This document shows positions 471 to 34,765 of a stretch of DNA of 64,000 nt, one piece after another. The notes beneath the pieces were generated by a model, which saw only the letters and a list, made by a program, of their open reading frames with translations, was not told where the DNA came from and ran no database searches. Source of the stretch: Pseudomonas sp. ISL-84. Lineage in GTDB: Bacteria > Bacillota > Bacilli > Bacillales > Cytobacillaceae. The DNA is taken from assembly GCA_018613035.1 (NCBI GenBank), contig JAGGRA010000050.1, positions 1 through 64,000 of the forward strand. The letters run 5' to 3'. The translations under genes were made by a program, and so were the position numbers. How positions within the stretch are numbered: position 1 is the first letter of the stretch; every line of letters begins with the position of its first letter.

Positions 471-665
471 AAATAAACGGAAAAATTCCGTTTATTTTGG
501 GAAATACCAACATTTCTCGCAAAATACGTGGAGTTTTTCCGCTTATATGAACCTAATCTTTAGAGTTAGTTATATATATAGAAGTTAATCGGAATATATC
601 CGCTTATATCTGCTTCTTGTACCCCTACTATACACATTAACCGGAATTTCTCCGCCTATGAATTC
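471..665. repeat. cluster of CGGAA/TCCG mini-palindromes
   Basis: At 471-497 a perfect hairpin has 12-bp arms (AAATAAACGGAA) around a 3-nt loop. Related units with GGA...TCCGC(T/C)TAT occur near 530-547, 588-607 and 640-660, and a further GGAGAAATCTCC unit is at 61-72. They look like a small dispersed intergenic repeat. No gene expression role is evident. Confidence 0.6.
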
Positions 666-889
666 CTATACCTCCGCAAAAAAGTCAACAATGGATAACA
701 ACAGAGTCTTTTCTGACTTGAATATCAAAAAACCTACCAACCATTTTTAAGCACATCCATCCCCAATTAAATTAGCAAACAATTTCGAACACTGACACTA
801 ACTTTTGTCATCCTGTTAAAAAAGGTGCGAATTATGGTGCTAAAATACCATTACATTTATAAAAAGCCTTAATATTCAACAAAAAAGAT

Positions 890-919
890 GCAGTCCAATT
901 CAGTTGCGAATTGGACTGC
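890..919 (-). terminator. terminator of the SEC-C gene
   Basis: A perfect 12-bp inverted repeat (GCAGTCCAATTC with GAATTGGACTGC, 6-nt loop) is followed on the minus strand by ATCTTTTTTG. It lies about 65 bases after the SEC-C stop codon and is the likely end of that transcript. Confidence 0.8.
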
Positions 920-984
920 TAATTTGTTTGCTAATTAAGTTTTCGTACTCGAAAACCGAACCCGTTAGCCCAAAAGCCCTCCGT

Positions 985-3851: not shown

Positions 3852-4423
3852 GCTGGATTCTTCTCCTTTTTCGCTTCATTTTTTTCGGCTGCATCCTTTT
3901 TCAGAAGAGCTGTTAAGAGTAAAGCAAAAATGATAATGGCAGGATGAATGTTTACAAATTCGAGAAGAATTAAGCTTGCCGCTACAAAAAGGAGTGTCCA
4001 GCCCCAGCCAAGTGATGATTTCGTCGACTTTTTTACAAAGTCCCATGTCAGTGTGGCGAGCATGACTGCCACAACCGGAACAACGGCTTTGGTCATGCCT
4101 GCGACCCATGGCTGGTCTTTGAATGTATTTAATGCTGTAAGAAGAATAATCATAAGGACAATCGTCGGTACCATTGTTGCTACAAGCGCTGTTACCATTC
4201 CAAGTATTCCGCCGACGCGGTAGCCGATATAGCCGGCCATTTTCGTGGCAATCGGGCCAGGCAGGGCATTACCAAGCGCCAGCACATCGCCAAACTCATC
4301 CGTATCCATCCATTTATATTTATCAACAACCTCTTTATGGACAAGCGGAATCGACGACGGACCGCCGCCGTAACCCAAAATGCCCACTCTGAAAAAAGCC
4401 ATAAAGATGTCAACCTGCTTCAA
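3848..4423 (-). CDS. ywrB: chromate transporter, short chain (YwrB-like)
   Basis: A 191-aa membrane protein, homologous partner of the downstream gene, with GYGGGPSSIPLVHKEVV and LGNALPGPIATKMAGYIG motifs. The frame is open to an ATG at 4465, but that has no ribosome binding site. A TTG at 4423 is preceded by AGAGGTG at seven bases and gives the family N-terminus MKQVDIFMAFFRVGILGYGG, so I use it. The C-terminal tail is lysine/glutamate rich. The order GGT - CHR - CHR resembles B. subtilis ywrDCBA without the Lrp-like regulator ywrC. Confidence 0.87.
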   Translation of the reverse strand: MKQVDIFMAFFRVGILGYGGGPSSIPLVHKEVVDKYKWMDTDEFGDVLALGNALPGPIATKMAGYIGYRVGGILGMVTALVATMVPTIVLMIILLTALNTFKDQPWVAGMTKAVVPVVAVMLATLTWDFVKKSTKSSLGWGWTLLFVAASLILLEFVNIHPAIIIFALLLTALLKKDAAEKNEAKKEKNPA

Positions 4424-9340: not shown

Positions 9341-9530
9341 ACTGTCTAGCTGCAGCGCCTAGCCCCTCGAGGTCACAAGCCAATCCTTTTCAGAAGGAAA
9401 GAACGCCTTCTTGCAGGGCTTGTCTTGTGCTTGAGACCCTCAGGATGAGGGTCATGCAGACGTTGCCACAGGACGTGGCGCTTTTAGTCTGCGTTCCTCA
9501 TAAACAAGGCGCTTTCGCCTTCTGTGTGTC
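9341..9530. repeat. second dispersed repeat family (TAGCTGCAGCGCCTAG type)
   Basis: Starts GTCTAGCTGCAGCGCCTAGC and CCCCTCGAGGTCACAAGCC and ends AAGGCGCTTTCGCCTTCT, with several inner hairpins (AGACCCTCAGGATGAGGGTC, GCCACAGGACGTGGC). It is GC-rich against an AT-rich flank. It is unrelated in sequence to the repeat at 9075. From memory such elements recur between genes in Bacillaceae. No open frame is convincing. Confidence 0.7.
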
Positions 9531-22758: not shown

Positions 22759-22842
22759 CTAAACCTTTATATCAGTTTCCGTTTAGGATAAAATAAATAC
22801 GAACATATATTCCTATATATATATATTGGCGAGGTGGTCCAA

Positions 22843-23700
22843 ATGACTTTTTCATGCCTTAGTCCTGTCCAACAGAATATCTTATTTGCCAGCATTATTG
22901 CTGACGGGGAGATCACAAAATGCTACCCGGGAAGCAGAAGAAAAAACAACAGTTACCGAGAGCATTACGGCAAACAGCAAGAAGCTTATCGCATGTGGAA
23001 AGCTTCCTTTTATGATGGACAGCTTTATATTCGGCCAAACGGAAATTATCTCGTTTCTCGTTCTGATCCCTATTTCACCAAATTATATCCATATTTCTAT
23101 GATATTTCGGGCAATAAGAGAATTCCTGTAGAATTGCTATCAACCTGTAATCTACTTCACTTTTTAACCGTTCTTTATCTGGATGACGGCTCATTATGTA
23201 TATCAAAAAGGGTTAATCACCAAAAGAAGCTCATCTATTTAACTCCACATATTTTTCTTTATTTACAAAACTATCCTCGAGATCAGCTACATATATTAAA
23301 AACACATATTAATAGCAAATTTGGTTTTGACTTTAAGATAAGCAAAAGAAAAGATGGCTACGGTTATATACTAAGACTTACAACGGTAATGGCTAGTCTG
23401 GACTTTCTAGGTGTTATAAGAGAAATAGCAAGTGGATGCAAGAAAATGGAGTATAAATTTAATTGGGAAACAAGATTCCAAGTAGAAGAAGAAAAGTTAA
23501 AAAAACTACATACTGGCTATCAAATTCTTTCTTCTGACTCAAACAGATTTAGGAACTATACAGAAAACGAAGTGGCCCAAATCATTGATTTTAAAAAGAA
23601 TGGGAAAACTGATAAACAAATCGCTAACGAACTGCAAAGATCGTATTGGTCGATTGTTTATAAGCTGAAGGAGTTGAGGAAGGCTGGTCTTTTACAATGA
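22843..23700 (+). CDS. LAGLIDADG homing endonuclease
   Basis: A 285-aa protein with two LAGLIDADG-type helices, ILFASIIADGEITK (about 13-26) and FLTVLYLDDGSLCI (about 110-124), the layout of the LAGLIDADG_2 group, and a C-terminal helix-turn-helix of SANT/sigma-like kind (TENEVAQIIDFKKNGKTDKQ). Such enzymes cut an intronless allele and start intron homing. The gene is convergent with hag, whose coding sequence is split by two group I introns just downstream, so hag or its introns are the probable target. AGGTGG precedes the ATG at 22843. It is AT-rich relative to neighbours and interrupts the normal flaG-hag adjacency, so it was probably acquired. Confidence 0.88.
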   Translation: MTFSCLSPVQQNILFASIIADGEITKCYPGSRRKNNSYREHYGKQQEAYRMWKASFYDGQLYIRPNGNYLVSRSDPYFTKLYPYFYDISGNKRIPVELLSTCNLLHFLTVLYLDDGSLCISKRVNHQKKLIYLTPHIFLYLQNYPRDQLHILKTHINSKFGFDFKISKRKDGYGYILRLTTVMASLDFLGVIREIASGCKKMEYKFNWETRFQVEEEKLKKLHTGYQILSSDSNRFRNYTENEVAQIIDFKKNGKTDKQIANELQRSYWSIVYKLKELRKAGLLQ

Positions 23701-23820: not shown

Positions 23821-25715
23821 TTAACGAAGAAGTTGAAGAACCCCTTGTGGCTGTTGGTTCGCTTGCTTTGCGACTGTATCTTTCGAGAACAGAATAGACT
23901 ATATCTTCACCCTTGTCTTCCAAGAGGCTGGGCACTTCGAACAGCTTTTACTGCCCTACGAGATTCATAGTCATAGCCTTTTGCCTTAGACCGTATTCCC
24001 TAGTCGTTGAACCTTCTCCAGAGTTTCCTCACAGGAGCTTGGCTGCTGATTATCCATTGTTCCATCCTCATCATTTTCAAACCATCACGCTAACCGTTTC
24101 CAATTACGTTGTGGTTGATGAAGCTTTAGGAAGTTCCAGCAATTCACCCAGTTATACTCTAGCTCGTTACCAAGCTAGACGCCCTTCTAATCAATTACCT
24201 TAAGAGTTGTAACACTCCTTGAGGCATTTGATTAGATTGAGCCAACATTGCTTGTGCTGCTTGAGAAAGAATTGAATTCTTAGTTTGGTTCATCATTTCT
24301 TTCGCCATCGTGCGAACATTTGCTTTCACAAATGACTAGACTATATCTTCACCCTCTATAACTCTGGTAGGGGTCGGGCACTTCGGATTCACAATGCTGA
24401 TGATACATTGTTTCACCTATGGATTTCATCATCATAGCTATCGCCTTAGATGGTCTATCCTAGTCGTTGAACCTTCTCCACTCTTTCAAGACAGGAGCTT
24501 GGCTGCTGATTGCCCAATCTTTTCTTTTTTCAAACCATCACGTTTGTCGTTTCCAACTACGTTGTGGCAAGAAAAGCTCTAAGGGGTTTCCAGCAATTCA
24601 CCCGATTATGATCGCTAGCCGTTACCAGCTAGGACGACTGTGCTTGTCACTCCTTATGCAGCTAAAGCATAATCTACGTCACGGATACGAGATTCCGCAG
24701 CAGTTAGGTTTTCAGATGATGTTCCTAGGTTGTTGATTGTGTGGTCTAGACGGTTTTGCCAAGCACCTAGTTGAGAACGTTGTGCAGATACTTTTTTGAT
24801 TGCCTCATCAATTACTTCTAAGTTGTCACCAAAATCTTTATTAACAACATTAACTGCAGCCAAATTTGCAACATTTGCATTTGATGCGGTAGAACCAAGT
24901 GCAGAAGCCCTCATATCCCCAATACTAATATCTAGTGTCGTATCAGAGTTTGCTCCAATTTGGAAACTAAGCTGTGTTCCTGATGTTAAAAGCGTACTAC
25001 CTGACGCGGTCGCAGTACCACCATCTAAGGTTTCAAGATTAGCATTTGAAGAAAAAGAAATTGATAGTCCTATAGAATCAAAATTTAAAGTTGTTCCAGC
25101 CGCTACAGCTGCCGGATCCTGAGAAAGTGTTTGAGATACACCACTGTTTGCACCTGTAACAGTAATAGTATCATCAGTTGCATTTGTAGTAATAGTTAAC
25201 GTTTCACCACTTGGTACTCCAGACGCATCAAAAGAAATACCGGCTGCAAGATATTCAGCGTCAGTTACACCTGTGGCTGACGCTGCTGATACGCCTAAAC
25301 TTCCTGTCAATAGAGTTTTAGTATTAAACTCTGTCTTTTCAGCAATTCTTGTAACTTCAGAGTTTAGCTCTGCTATCTCCTTTTGGATTTCAGCTAGATC
25401 ATCAGGATTATTCGTATCATTGTTTGATTGAACTGTTAACTCTCTCATTCTCTGTAAAATTGAGTGCGTTTCATTCAATGCACCTTCAGCAGTTTGAATT
25501 AGAGAGATACCATCCTGGGCGTTTCGGGAAGCTTGGTCTAATCCACGAATTTGCCCACGCATTTTTTCAGAAATAGCAAGACCAGCAGCGTCATCTCCTG
25601 CACGATTAATACGAAGACCAGAAGATAGTTTCTCCATCGATTTTGATTGAGCTCCTGTTGCGCTGTTTAACTGACGATAAGTGTTAAGAGCCGCAATGTT
25701 ATGATTAATTCTCAT
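23821..25715 (-). CDS. hag: flagellin, split by two group I introns
   Basis: The filament protein. The D0/D1 N-terminal region (MRINHNIAALNTYRQL...) and variable centre are in exon 1, about 24666-25715. Read straight through, the frame stops at RDVDYALAA, but the missing C-terminus resumes as KEMMNQTKNSILSQAAQAML in exon 2 (about 24240-24302) and QANQQPQGVLQLLR in exon 3 (about 23821-23865). The join gives 385 residues. If only intron 1 is removed, exon 2 runs into intron 2 and still ends QSNQMPQGVLQLLR-stop at 24195, also 385 residues. A consensus sigma-D promoter and a CsrA-type hairpin precede it. Exact splice points are inferred from flagellin consensus. Confidence 0.88.
23866..24239 (-). 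ncRNA. group I intron 2 in hag
   Basis: Carries the same catalytic-core motifs as intron 1, on the minus strand: AATCAGCAGCCAAG (24038-24051), GAGAAGGTTCAACGACTA (24001-24018) and GAAGATATAGTC (23897-23908). The 5' end is placed after GTTGGCT and the 3' end before CAAGCGAACC so that MLA joins QANQQPQG; the exon ends in U and the intron in G, as the class requires. Exon TTGGC can pair with GCC.CAA inside the intron. Its first 45 bases also encode QSNQMPQGVLQLLR and a stop in the exon 2 frame. Confidence 0.72.
24303..24665 (-). ncRNA. group I intron 1 in hag
   Basis: About 363 nt. On the minus strand the core has AATCAGCAGCCAAG (24498-24511), GAGAAGGTTCAACGACTA (24461-24478) and GAAGATATAGTC (24339-24350), the P/Q-, R- and S-type elements of group I introns, and a terminal hairpin CATTTG/CAAATG. 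Splicing after GATTATGCT and before AAAGAAATG gives RDVDYA-KEMM, and exon TTATGC pairs with GCATAA in the intron (P1). A site 6 nt away (24309-24671) giving RDVD-MAKEMM is equally good by protein consensus. No open frame inside. Confidence 0.85.
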
Positions 25716-25864: not shown

Positions 25865-26095
25865 TTATTTTTTTTTAAAGAAGGAGCTTAGACTATCGAT
25901 AGCGTTTACTTCGGTTTGTGCTGCGCTGCTGTTTTCCTGCTGAATAGACAAATAGATTTCTTTTCTATGTATGTCGACGTTTTTCGGAGCATTGATGCCA
26001 AGTTTGACTTGATCTCCTTCGATAGAGAGAACAGAGATTTCAATGTCGTCGCCGATCATGATGGATTCTTTAAGCTTTCTGGTAAGTACGAGCAT
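25865..26095 (-). CDS. csrA: carbon storage regulator CsrA
   Basis: A 76-aa RNA-binding dimer that represses flagellin translation by binding GGA motifs in the hag leader. The family core [34 protein letters not shown] is intact, with an extended, serine-rich tail ending SFFKKK. The ATG overlaps the fliW stop (TAATG), so FliW and CsrA are made together; FliW antagonises CsrA until it is captured by flagellin. Confidence 0.95.
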
Positions 26096-26535
26096 TATTT
26101 CTCCCCCTGTTCTTGAGGAGTTGGGATTTTATGCTTTGTTTGGTAGGCTGGGTTATTGAGTATGATTTGCTTTCCCAATTTTTTTGTTTGGTTGATGATT
26201 AACGGCGCCTGCAGGTTGGCGGTTGTTTCCTGGAAGAGCTCTCTTACCGTTAAGATGGTAAAGATGGCAACGTCTTTTTCCGATTCGATCTCTAATTTTT
26301 CTAGTACCTCTTCCGGCAAATCAAATTCATATTGCGGAAAAAGCACAAAAGGATCTGTAATAATAAAAGCAACCTCTGTTTTATTAACTGACTGAAGCAC
26401 ATAAAGATCTGTCCCTTCAAGCAGCAGGATGTAAAATTCCTTTTCCTTTAAAAATCCAGGAATGCCACTTGAAAATTGAATAATATCTTTTCTGTTTATA
26501 TCCTGTTCGCCATGAAATTTCGTCTGTATCTTCAT
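26095..26535 (-). CDS. fliW: flagellar assembly factor FliW
   Basis: A 146-aa FliW family protein ([21 protein letters not shown] near 22-42, [20 protein letters not shown] near 103-122, then the family's KQIILNN end). FliW binds flagellin in the cytoplasm and, when free, inhibits CsrA non-competitively. Coupled to csrA downstream and behind yviE, as in B. subtilis. Confidence 0.95.
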
Positions 26536-34554: not shown

Positions 34555-34765
34555 TGCATAACGTCCTTTCCTTTTAAAAAGGCAAATGAGGAAAGTGTTC
34601 ATTTTTCTATGCAACCCGGCTGCCATGGCAGGAACCTGCTTTAGGCCCGCAGCTTTGCGTCTTTTACTTTCGTAAAATTTGCCCTTAATTAGAATATGTT
34701 ACCATATGACGTTAGCACTATGAACAGATTGTTAACAATTAATGTAAATGAAAGTTTTTCCATTT

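Follow-up and report, generated by a model that had tools for sequence, protein, structure and literature searches.

Two group I introns in a Bacillales flagellin gene, with a proposed degradation tail in the first and a decoy C-terminus in the second

The window analysed here is a 64,000-nucleotide stretch of contig JAGGRA010000050.1 from Pseudomonas sp. ISL-84, a genome placed by GTDB in the family Cytobacillaceae (Bacillales). It carries the flagellin gene hag on the minus strand, and the features of the hag locus are presented in Table 1. The hag open reading frame at 24654-25715 encodes 353 aa and stops after RDVDYALAA, as the first-pass annotation, made from the sequence alone, had described in reporting a premature end of the flagellin frame. 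The covariance model search for group I introns that it had suggested returned two RF00028 matches when the window was compared with Rfam, at 24658-24317 (-) with 87.6 bits and at 24203-23874 (-) with 77.3 bits, both over the gathering score of 50. The introns interrupt hag at RDVD/MAKEM and MLA/QANQQ, where the slash, here and below, marks the splice junction. Reading on from exon 1 into intron 1 adds YALAA and a stop (hereafter the tail), and reading on from exon 2 into intron 2 adds a second version of the flagellin C-terminus (hereafter the decoy). Intron 2 begins directly after MLA; bases 24239-24195, its first 45, give QSNQMPQGVLQLLR-stop in frame, while exon 3 (23865-23821) encodes QANQQPQGVLQLLR-stop. 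Spliced hag and intron-2-retaining hag therefore both have 348+23+14 = 385 residues, which agrees with the length given for both in the first-pass annotation.

Table 1 Features of the hag locus in the window. Positions are those of the window; the slash marks the splice junction.
Feature	Position	Strand	Evidence
hag exon 1, 348 codons, ends RDVD	24672..25715	-	ORF and Pfam Flagellin_N/Flagellin_C; 3′ end from P1 pairing
Group I intron 1, 363 nt	24309..24671	-	RF00028, 87.6 bits; 159 distinct copies in relatives
Intron 1 read-through tail YALAA-stop, proposed degradation tail	24654..24671	-	AA end in 149/159; last-two-codon pN/pS 0.116
Intron 1 guide GUCGUC, first G opposite exon-terminal U	24633..24638	-	Paired in 159/159 minimum-energy folds
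Hairpin UUCGC-ACG/AUG-GCGAA over intron 1 3′ splice site	24301..24316	-	Intron-exon covariation
hag exon 2, 23 codons, MAKEMM...MLA	24240..24308	-	Sequence; joined frame in relatives
Group I intron 2, 374 nt	23866..24239	-	RF00028, 77.3 bits; 130 copies with decoy
Decoy C-terminus QSNQMPQGVLQLLR-stop, within extended P1 hairpin	24195..24239	-	pN/pS in frame vs other frames; fold
Intron 2 guide GGGC, second G opposite exon-terminal U	24181..24184	-	Paired in 127/130 folds
Hairpin UCGC-AAAG/CAA-GCGA over intron 2 3′ splice site	23859..23873	-	Intron-exon covariation
hag exon 3 QANQQPQGVLQLLR-stop	23821..23865	-	Intact in 128/130 copies; pN/pS 0.145
LAGLIDADG_2 endonuclease gene, convergent with hag	22834..23700	+	PF03161, 7.4e-11; association in relatives

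Two short genes lie 5′ of hag at 25865-26535 (-) and resemble, in sequence and gene order, csrA and fliW; in B. subtilis, CsrA and FliW are regulators of flagellin translation. Elsewhere in the window, matches to the c-di-GMP-I riboswitch (34607-34693 (-), 82.4 bits) and to the Bacillaceae-1 RNA (9437-9503 (-), 82.5 bits) were also present.

To compare the two introns with their relatives, copies were collected from capped samples of other genomes. A match to RF00028 was present in 24 of 36 genomes of the genus, the source genome included. The DNA of intron 1 used as a query hit 103 of 193 family genomes at E ≤ 0.001 and 133 of 397 order genomes at E ≤ 1e-15, the latter in 59 of 135 genera, both counts taking in other related introns as well. 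When named genomes were scanned with a core pattern, at least 118 stretches were obtained. Genera among the matches listed are Heyndrickxia, Neobacillus, Peribacillus, Niallia, Halobacillus, Planococcus, Sporosarcina, Anoxybacillus, Geobacillus and Brevibacillus, together with some clostridia. After identical sequences had been merged, 159 intron-1 and 131 intron-2 copies were available. Tails were taken from intron-1 copies by a finder that accepted 1-16 residues and then a stop, and decoys from intron-2 copies by one that accepted 8-24 residues behind the hag exon motif. A decoy was present in 130 of the 131 intron-2 copies found by the exon motif; L210, an intron-2 copy without a decoy, was removed before the count of 130.

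The copies were also counted from the 3′ side of the introns. Only 3 of 154 intron-1 cores were without a listed tail, and these were L081 (no hag frame upstream), L157 (5′ end missing) and L316 (masked). A listed decoy was absent from 15 of 141 intron-2 cores, six of which (L143, L173, L237, L251, L285 and L259) do read one. Also unlisted were L166, which has a short tail, L198, which is decayed and has two stops, and L128, which follows a second exon-3-like end; L076, L245, L270, L320 and L323 belong to the same 15. The last of the 15, L092 in genome G114, is an orphan intron-2 core followed by an exon-3-like end, with neither hag exons nor a decoy in front of it. As the copies are related and the introns may spread by homing, the copies are not independent.

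With regard to such mobility, the largest endonuclease-like frame is located downstream of hag and points towards it, and does not lie inside an intron. Its LAGLIDADG_2 domain matched PF03161 with 42.7 bits (cut-off, 25). The family of this gene, the first of two distantly related LAGLIDADG_2 families, was found beside 20 of 62 hags carrying only intron 2 and beside 1 of 93 carrying only intron 1, and the second family beside 3 and 36 of them, respectively. Next to the 27 hags with both introns, the first family occurred 9 times and the second twice (7, 9 and 32 places were left out of these neighbourhood counts for short flanks). The genes were convergent with hag in 39 of 39 aligned pieces for the first family and in 153 of 157 for the second; members of the second family were seen downstream of intron-1-only hags, and convergent with them, at L289, L290, L333 and L251. 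Judged from these associations, the LAGLIDADG gene that stands next to hag and converges with it tends to differ with the intron present, the window having the intron-2 type, and this arrangement would fit homing in trans with one enzyme per intron.

The splice sites were located by folding P1. In the window, the 5′ splice site of intron 1 was placed after GAT (24672), with the exon U opposite guide G 24638. The first-pass annotation had reported that the terminal exon U faces a U in P1, a pair that arose because the intron-1 junction had been placed too far downstream, and it disappeared once the site was set at GAT/TATGC; splicing after TATGCT, which gives the U:U pair, was accordingly rejected. 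Across the relatives, the last U of an exon 1 ending in GAT paired with the first G of GUCGUC in 159 of 159 minimum-energy folds. For an exon 2 ending in GCT, the second G of GGGC was the partner of the last U in 127 of 130 folds; in these the last six exon bases were kept constant, GCT being the actual final codon in 129 of 130 copies. The P1 extension of intron 1 covaries: pairing reached 92.5%, whereas the shuffles averaged 85.0% and none of 1000 was as high (51 distinct rows); 27 cells were changed on both sides, and slid versions were 24-53% paired. Two other candidates were discarded: a 5′ site for intron 2 at CCT/CAAGG pairing with GGGCGU, drawn by hand, for which L011 has CCA and so places an A opposite G, and a P1 formed by the repeat TTATGC with GCATAA, which is broken in L007 by GCTTAG.

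At the other end, a G precedes the 3′ exon in both window introns (CACG/ATGGC and AAAG/CAAGC). The joined intron-1 frame reads RDVDMA in 153 of 159 copies, one of these joins using an ATGGC earlier than intended, and the 3′ site was not found in the other 6. For intron 2, the protein obtained with the 3′ pattern was as expected in 106 of 130 copies and mismatched in 2, and no site was found in 22; inspection of these 22 by eye showed that the first codon of exon 3, a Gln codon (CAA, or CAG in two), is immediately preceded by a G. The 3′ splice site of each intron falls in the loop of a hairpin made from the intron end and the exon start. This junction hairpin was 94.0% paired in intron 1 against 77.9% when shuffled, with 1 of 1000 shuffles as high (10 distinct rows, 153 copies), and 88.2% against 76.7% in intron 2, with 0 of 1000 as high (17 distinct rows, 109 copies). 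Both introns are predicted to be self-splicing in the source strain.

We then considered the decoy and exon 3 as coding sequences. In its own frame the decoy has a pN/pS of 0.189, compared with 0.808 and 3.706 in the two others (124 distinct decoys), and the pairwise value in the family set, for which the finder demanded Gln-Ser behind the exon, is 0.069 against 1.14 and 6.8 (37 copies, 36 distinct). Similarly, exon 3 has a pN/pS of 0.145 in frame against 0.876 and 5.342 (73 distinct sequences). It is intact in 128 of 130 intron-2 copies, and in the two without a whole exon 3 (L093 and L319) the stretch ends inside it. These values bear on a possibility that the first-pass annotation had raised against its own reading, namely that intron 2 lies wholly behind the decoy stop at 24195, with exon 3 as mere leftover hag sequence. 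Although the Rfam match does begin behind the decoy (24203), an exon 3 that is intact in nearly every copy and under purifying selection as protein, together with an exon-2 U that sits opposite the guide G in 127 of 130 folds, makes such a leftover highly improbable.

The decoy and exon 3 were identical as peptide in 0 of 128 pairs, with a mean identity between decoy and local exon 3 of 68.3% for DNA and 84.2% for protein. They share the last residue in 122 of 128 pairs, including the rare Q-Q (6) and G-G (5), and position 8 likewise in 122 of 128, including A-A (6), S-S (5) and Q-Q (1); in [Clostridium] ultunense, PQTVLQLLR is read in decoy and exon 3 alike. Given that both are selected as protein and are never the same peptide, both products are probably made and used, so that the retained and the spliced message would each be translated into useful flagellin. 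In the folds, the decoy is contained in an extended P1 hairpin, with the opening codons paired in the stem and the remaining ones making up the distal part. The reading of hag as carrying two related group I introns, the second of which opens with a decoy flagellin end, is supported by the Rfam scores, the relatives, the codon-level selection and the P1 folds. A further element of the first-pass annotation fared differently: AAGGAGTG does occur in both window introns, but its interpretation as a shared structural RNA was dropped, since it is not conserved among the family copies. There, the intron-1 stop is followed by GGA in 1 of 42 copies and by GCA in 14 of 42, and the AAGGAGTG bases in the decoy vary as GGN-GTN codons.

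The tail of intron 1 showed a different kind of conservation. Among the 159 copies, YALAA was found in 103, YAEAA in 7, YTEAA in 6, YVLAA in 5, YALVA in 5 and 21 rarer kinds in the remainder. Residues and length vary, and the tail ends in AA in 149 copies, in VA in 7, and in TA, AV and AS in one each; of 11 tails with altered length (ten of six residues, one of eight), 10 end in AA and 1 in VA. In the last codon the third base is free (A 34, T 59, C 41, G 25), while the first base is G and the second C, each in 158 of 159, and the stop that follows is TAA in 138, TAG in 20 and TGA in 1. For the last two codons the pN/pS is 0.116, and for all five it is 0.346, a moderate constraint only (52 distinct five-codon tails); in a set distinct over 30 bases, used as a frame control, the tail gave 0.267 in frame against 1.513 and 0.668. 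The third residue from the end, the hydrophobic L in the window, is polar in 25 of 159 tails (E 14, S 9, Q 1, K 1), which weakens a strict LAA reading. At one place (L175 in genome G381), three successive hag copies were observed, each having an intron 1 with the tail YDLIAA.

While the first-pass annotation had correctly given YALAA as the end of the hag frame, it had missed the likeness of this end to the tmRNA tag. The tag of the host tmRNA is GKQQNNFALAA, ending in FALAA, and its coding sequence has 11 bases, GCTTTAGCTGC, in common with the intron-1 tail. All 32 tmRNA tags compared end in AA, those being from 25 of 26 further genomes (G159 was not read), six genus mates and the source genome; 20 of them were obtained by ARAGORN, that of the source genome from the printed translation, and 11 by patterns into which an Ala close to the end had been built. 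Ahead of the Ala pair, these tags carry variously L, F, V, A, Y or Q, the sole polar residue being one Q. The tmRNA gene adjoins a third RF00028 match of 41.3 bits, below the cut-off, on contig C25 of the source genome (G000; 352-632 and 621-957 (-); L003/L032). This tmRNA beside an intron-like match was missed by ARAGORN in the source genome, and the same was seen in genus mates (L020-L024 and L031).

In the portion of PMC5732988 available to us, GFP tagged with LAA or LVA is described as fluorescing more weakly in B. thuringiensis than GFP tagged with AAV or ASV; the weak LVA signal suggests that VA, the commonest exception among our tails, is also a good degradation end. The alanine tails added by RqcH are a second ClpXP signal in B. 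subtilis according to excerpts of PMC8012679 and PMC8138137, so the Ala-Ala itself may be what counts. We therefore consider that the intron-1 tail is likely a degradation signal of the ClpXP type on truncated flagellin.

However, the tail also forms part of P1, so that part of its conservation is structural: many folds place its GCNGC in P1 pairs, and TATGCT hardly varies. Early in-frame stops are also known in coding group I introns, as stated in extracts of PMC3984707. On these grounds the tail could be a mere early stop that shields the ribozyme, with YALAA a founder accident frozen by P1 and the decoy alone functional. Such an accident would not readily explain why AA ends 149 of 159 tails despite changed residues and lengths, or why the last codon varies freely at its third base but keeps its first and second bases in 158 of 159. 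Moreover, copies in which this codon is predicted to be unpaired encode Ala there in 13 of 13 cases at p ≥ 0.9 and in 21 of 22 at p ≥ 0.5. The penultimate codon is predicted unpaired at p ≥ 0.5 in 10 copies, 8 of them Ala, and in none at p ≥ 0.7, so it provides no clean set.

A further argument comes from L166 (genome G532), where a third intron at about 3990-4420 occupies the intron-2 site, has no decoy and reads MLA-QFEQIAA-stop, the exon U pairing with the guide in the fold. Thus a different intron, at the other site, has reached the same type of ending independently. Taking these observations together, we regard the founder accident as rather unlikely, although it deserves serious attention, and prefer the reading of the tail as a degradation signal. 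The AA end is not a trait of all coding introns, an idea that was discarded when 0 of 9 other coding group I introns of the genus proved to have an AA-ending tail. Most of the nine are presumably in nrdE. They were drawn from 16 loci, of which L013 (a hag), L003, L020 and L031 (no tail read), L016 (none at its own start) and L025 and L026 (weak matches behind ORFs that end in YR and KN) were left out.

In bacterial protein genes, ribosomes arrive before a group I intron has folded, and in the usual account an early stop helps the ribozyme to fold. We propose that hag goes further. With both introns near its 3′ end spliced, normal flagellin of 348+23+14 residues would be made. As ribosomes may translate the message before it is spliced, the 5′ ends of the introns would also encode an unspliced product, each of them, folded in P1, doubling as coding sequence for the unspliced message. 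A retained intron 1 would yield flagellin minus its last 37 residues plus the five-residue Ala-Ala tail, and since this tail resembles the host tmRNA tag, the truncated stump would probably be taken by ClpXP. A retained intron 2 would cost the last 14 residues only, for which the P1 hairpin would supply a substitute with its own stop, so that the product would still be full-length flagellin. Presumably 37 lost residues could hardly be replaced by a hairpin loop, and the stump is therefore best destroyed, while 14 can be made good inside P1.

We consider this whole account, with two introns, a degradation tail in the first and a substitute end in the second, to be probable. Comparison among relatives gives firm support to the introns, to their splice sites and to the conservation of decoy and exon 3 as protein; splicing in the source strain, ClpXP degradation and a working decoy-bearing flagellin are its predicted parts, and the last of these, from a retained intron 2, is very likely. 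With somewhat more reserve, we favour a general view of the mobile intron as carrying protein-level insurance, in which P1 would code either a destruction mark or a substitute end, the choice would follow the protein lost, and lineages could switch from one to the other, as QFEQIAA in L166 suggests. The proposal so far treats the two ends as a passive fail-safe. They could also belong to a regulated switch, in which splicing, for example under the influence of temperature, would determine in what proportion the two C-termini are made and how much of the stump is destroyed. The section of PMC4853749 at hand cites flagellin group I introns of thermophilic Bacillus whose splicing depends on temperature, and the decoys often keep a signature of their own, QSNQ[MLI]P, but this signature may stem from P1 pairing, and we think a regulated switch rather unlikely compared with the passive fail-safe.

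Several known systems resemble parts of this proposal. Flagellin group I introns of Geobacillus stearothermophilus and thermophilic Bacillus are known from Hayakawa and Ishizuka (2009, 2012), who reported temperature-dependent splicing, as cited in the parts of PMC3984707 and PMC4853749 used here; like the hag introns, these are group I introns of a flagellin gene in the same broad bacterial group, and a Geobacillus genome in our collection (L292) carries the intron-1 type with the tail YALAA. The tmRNA (ssrA) and RqcH tails share with the hag tail an Ala-Ala C-terminus, and both make proteins ClpXP targets in bacteria (PMC8012679 and PMC8138137, in excerpt). Unlike them, the hag tail is written in an intron and would be made by ordinary translation and termination, and its degradation is a prediction. 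In the c-di-GMP allosteric group I intron of C. difficile, as summarized in PMC3984707, the splicing outcome likewise decides what is translated; there, however, the splice site shifts and governs access to the ribosome binding site, whereas in hag the unspliced coding sequence itself appears adapted. The same source, as far as excerpted, describes collaborative (trans) homing in phages, in which an ORF-less intron stands beside a separate endonuclease gene. The hag locus is similar in this respect, but differs in having two LAGLIDADG_2 families, one per intron, convergent with a chromosomal gene, their cleavage of intronless insertion sites being putative.

In the open-access literature, which covers the work of Hayakawa and Ishizuka through citations, we found no report of a degradation tail or a substitute protein end in a bacterial group I intron. 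In hag, the peptide before the early stop appears to be selected in its own right, and in two opposite ways within one gene. If this is true, tmRNA-like tags exist in genomes outside tmRNA, a bacterial message that retains its intron can still yield usable protein, and adaptation at the protein level can make an intron less costly to carry. The residues before the first in-frame stop would then offer a signature by which other introns in protein genes may be re-examined.
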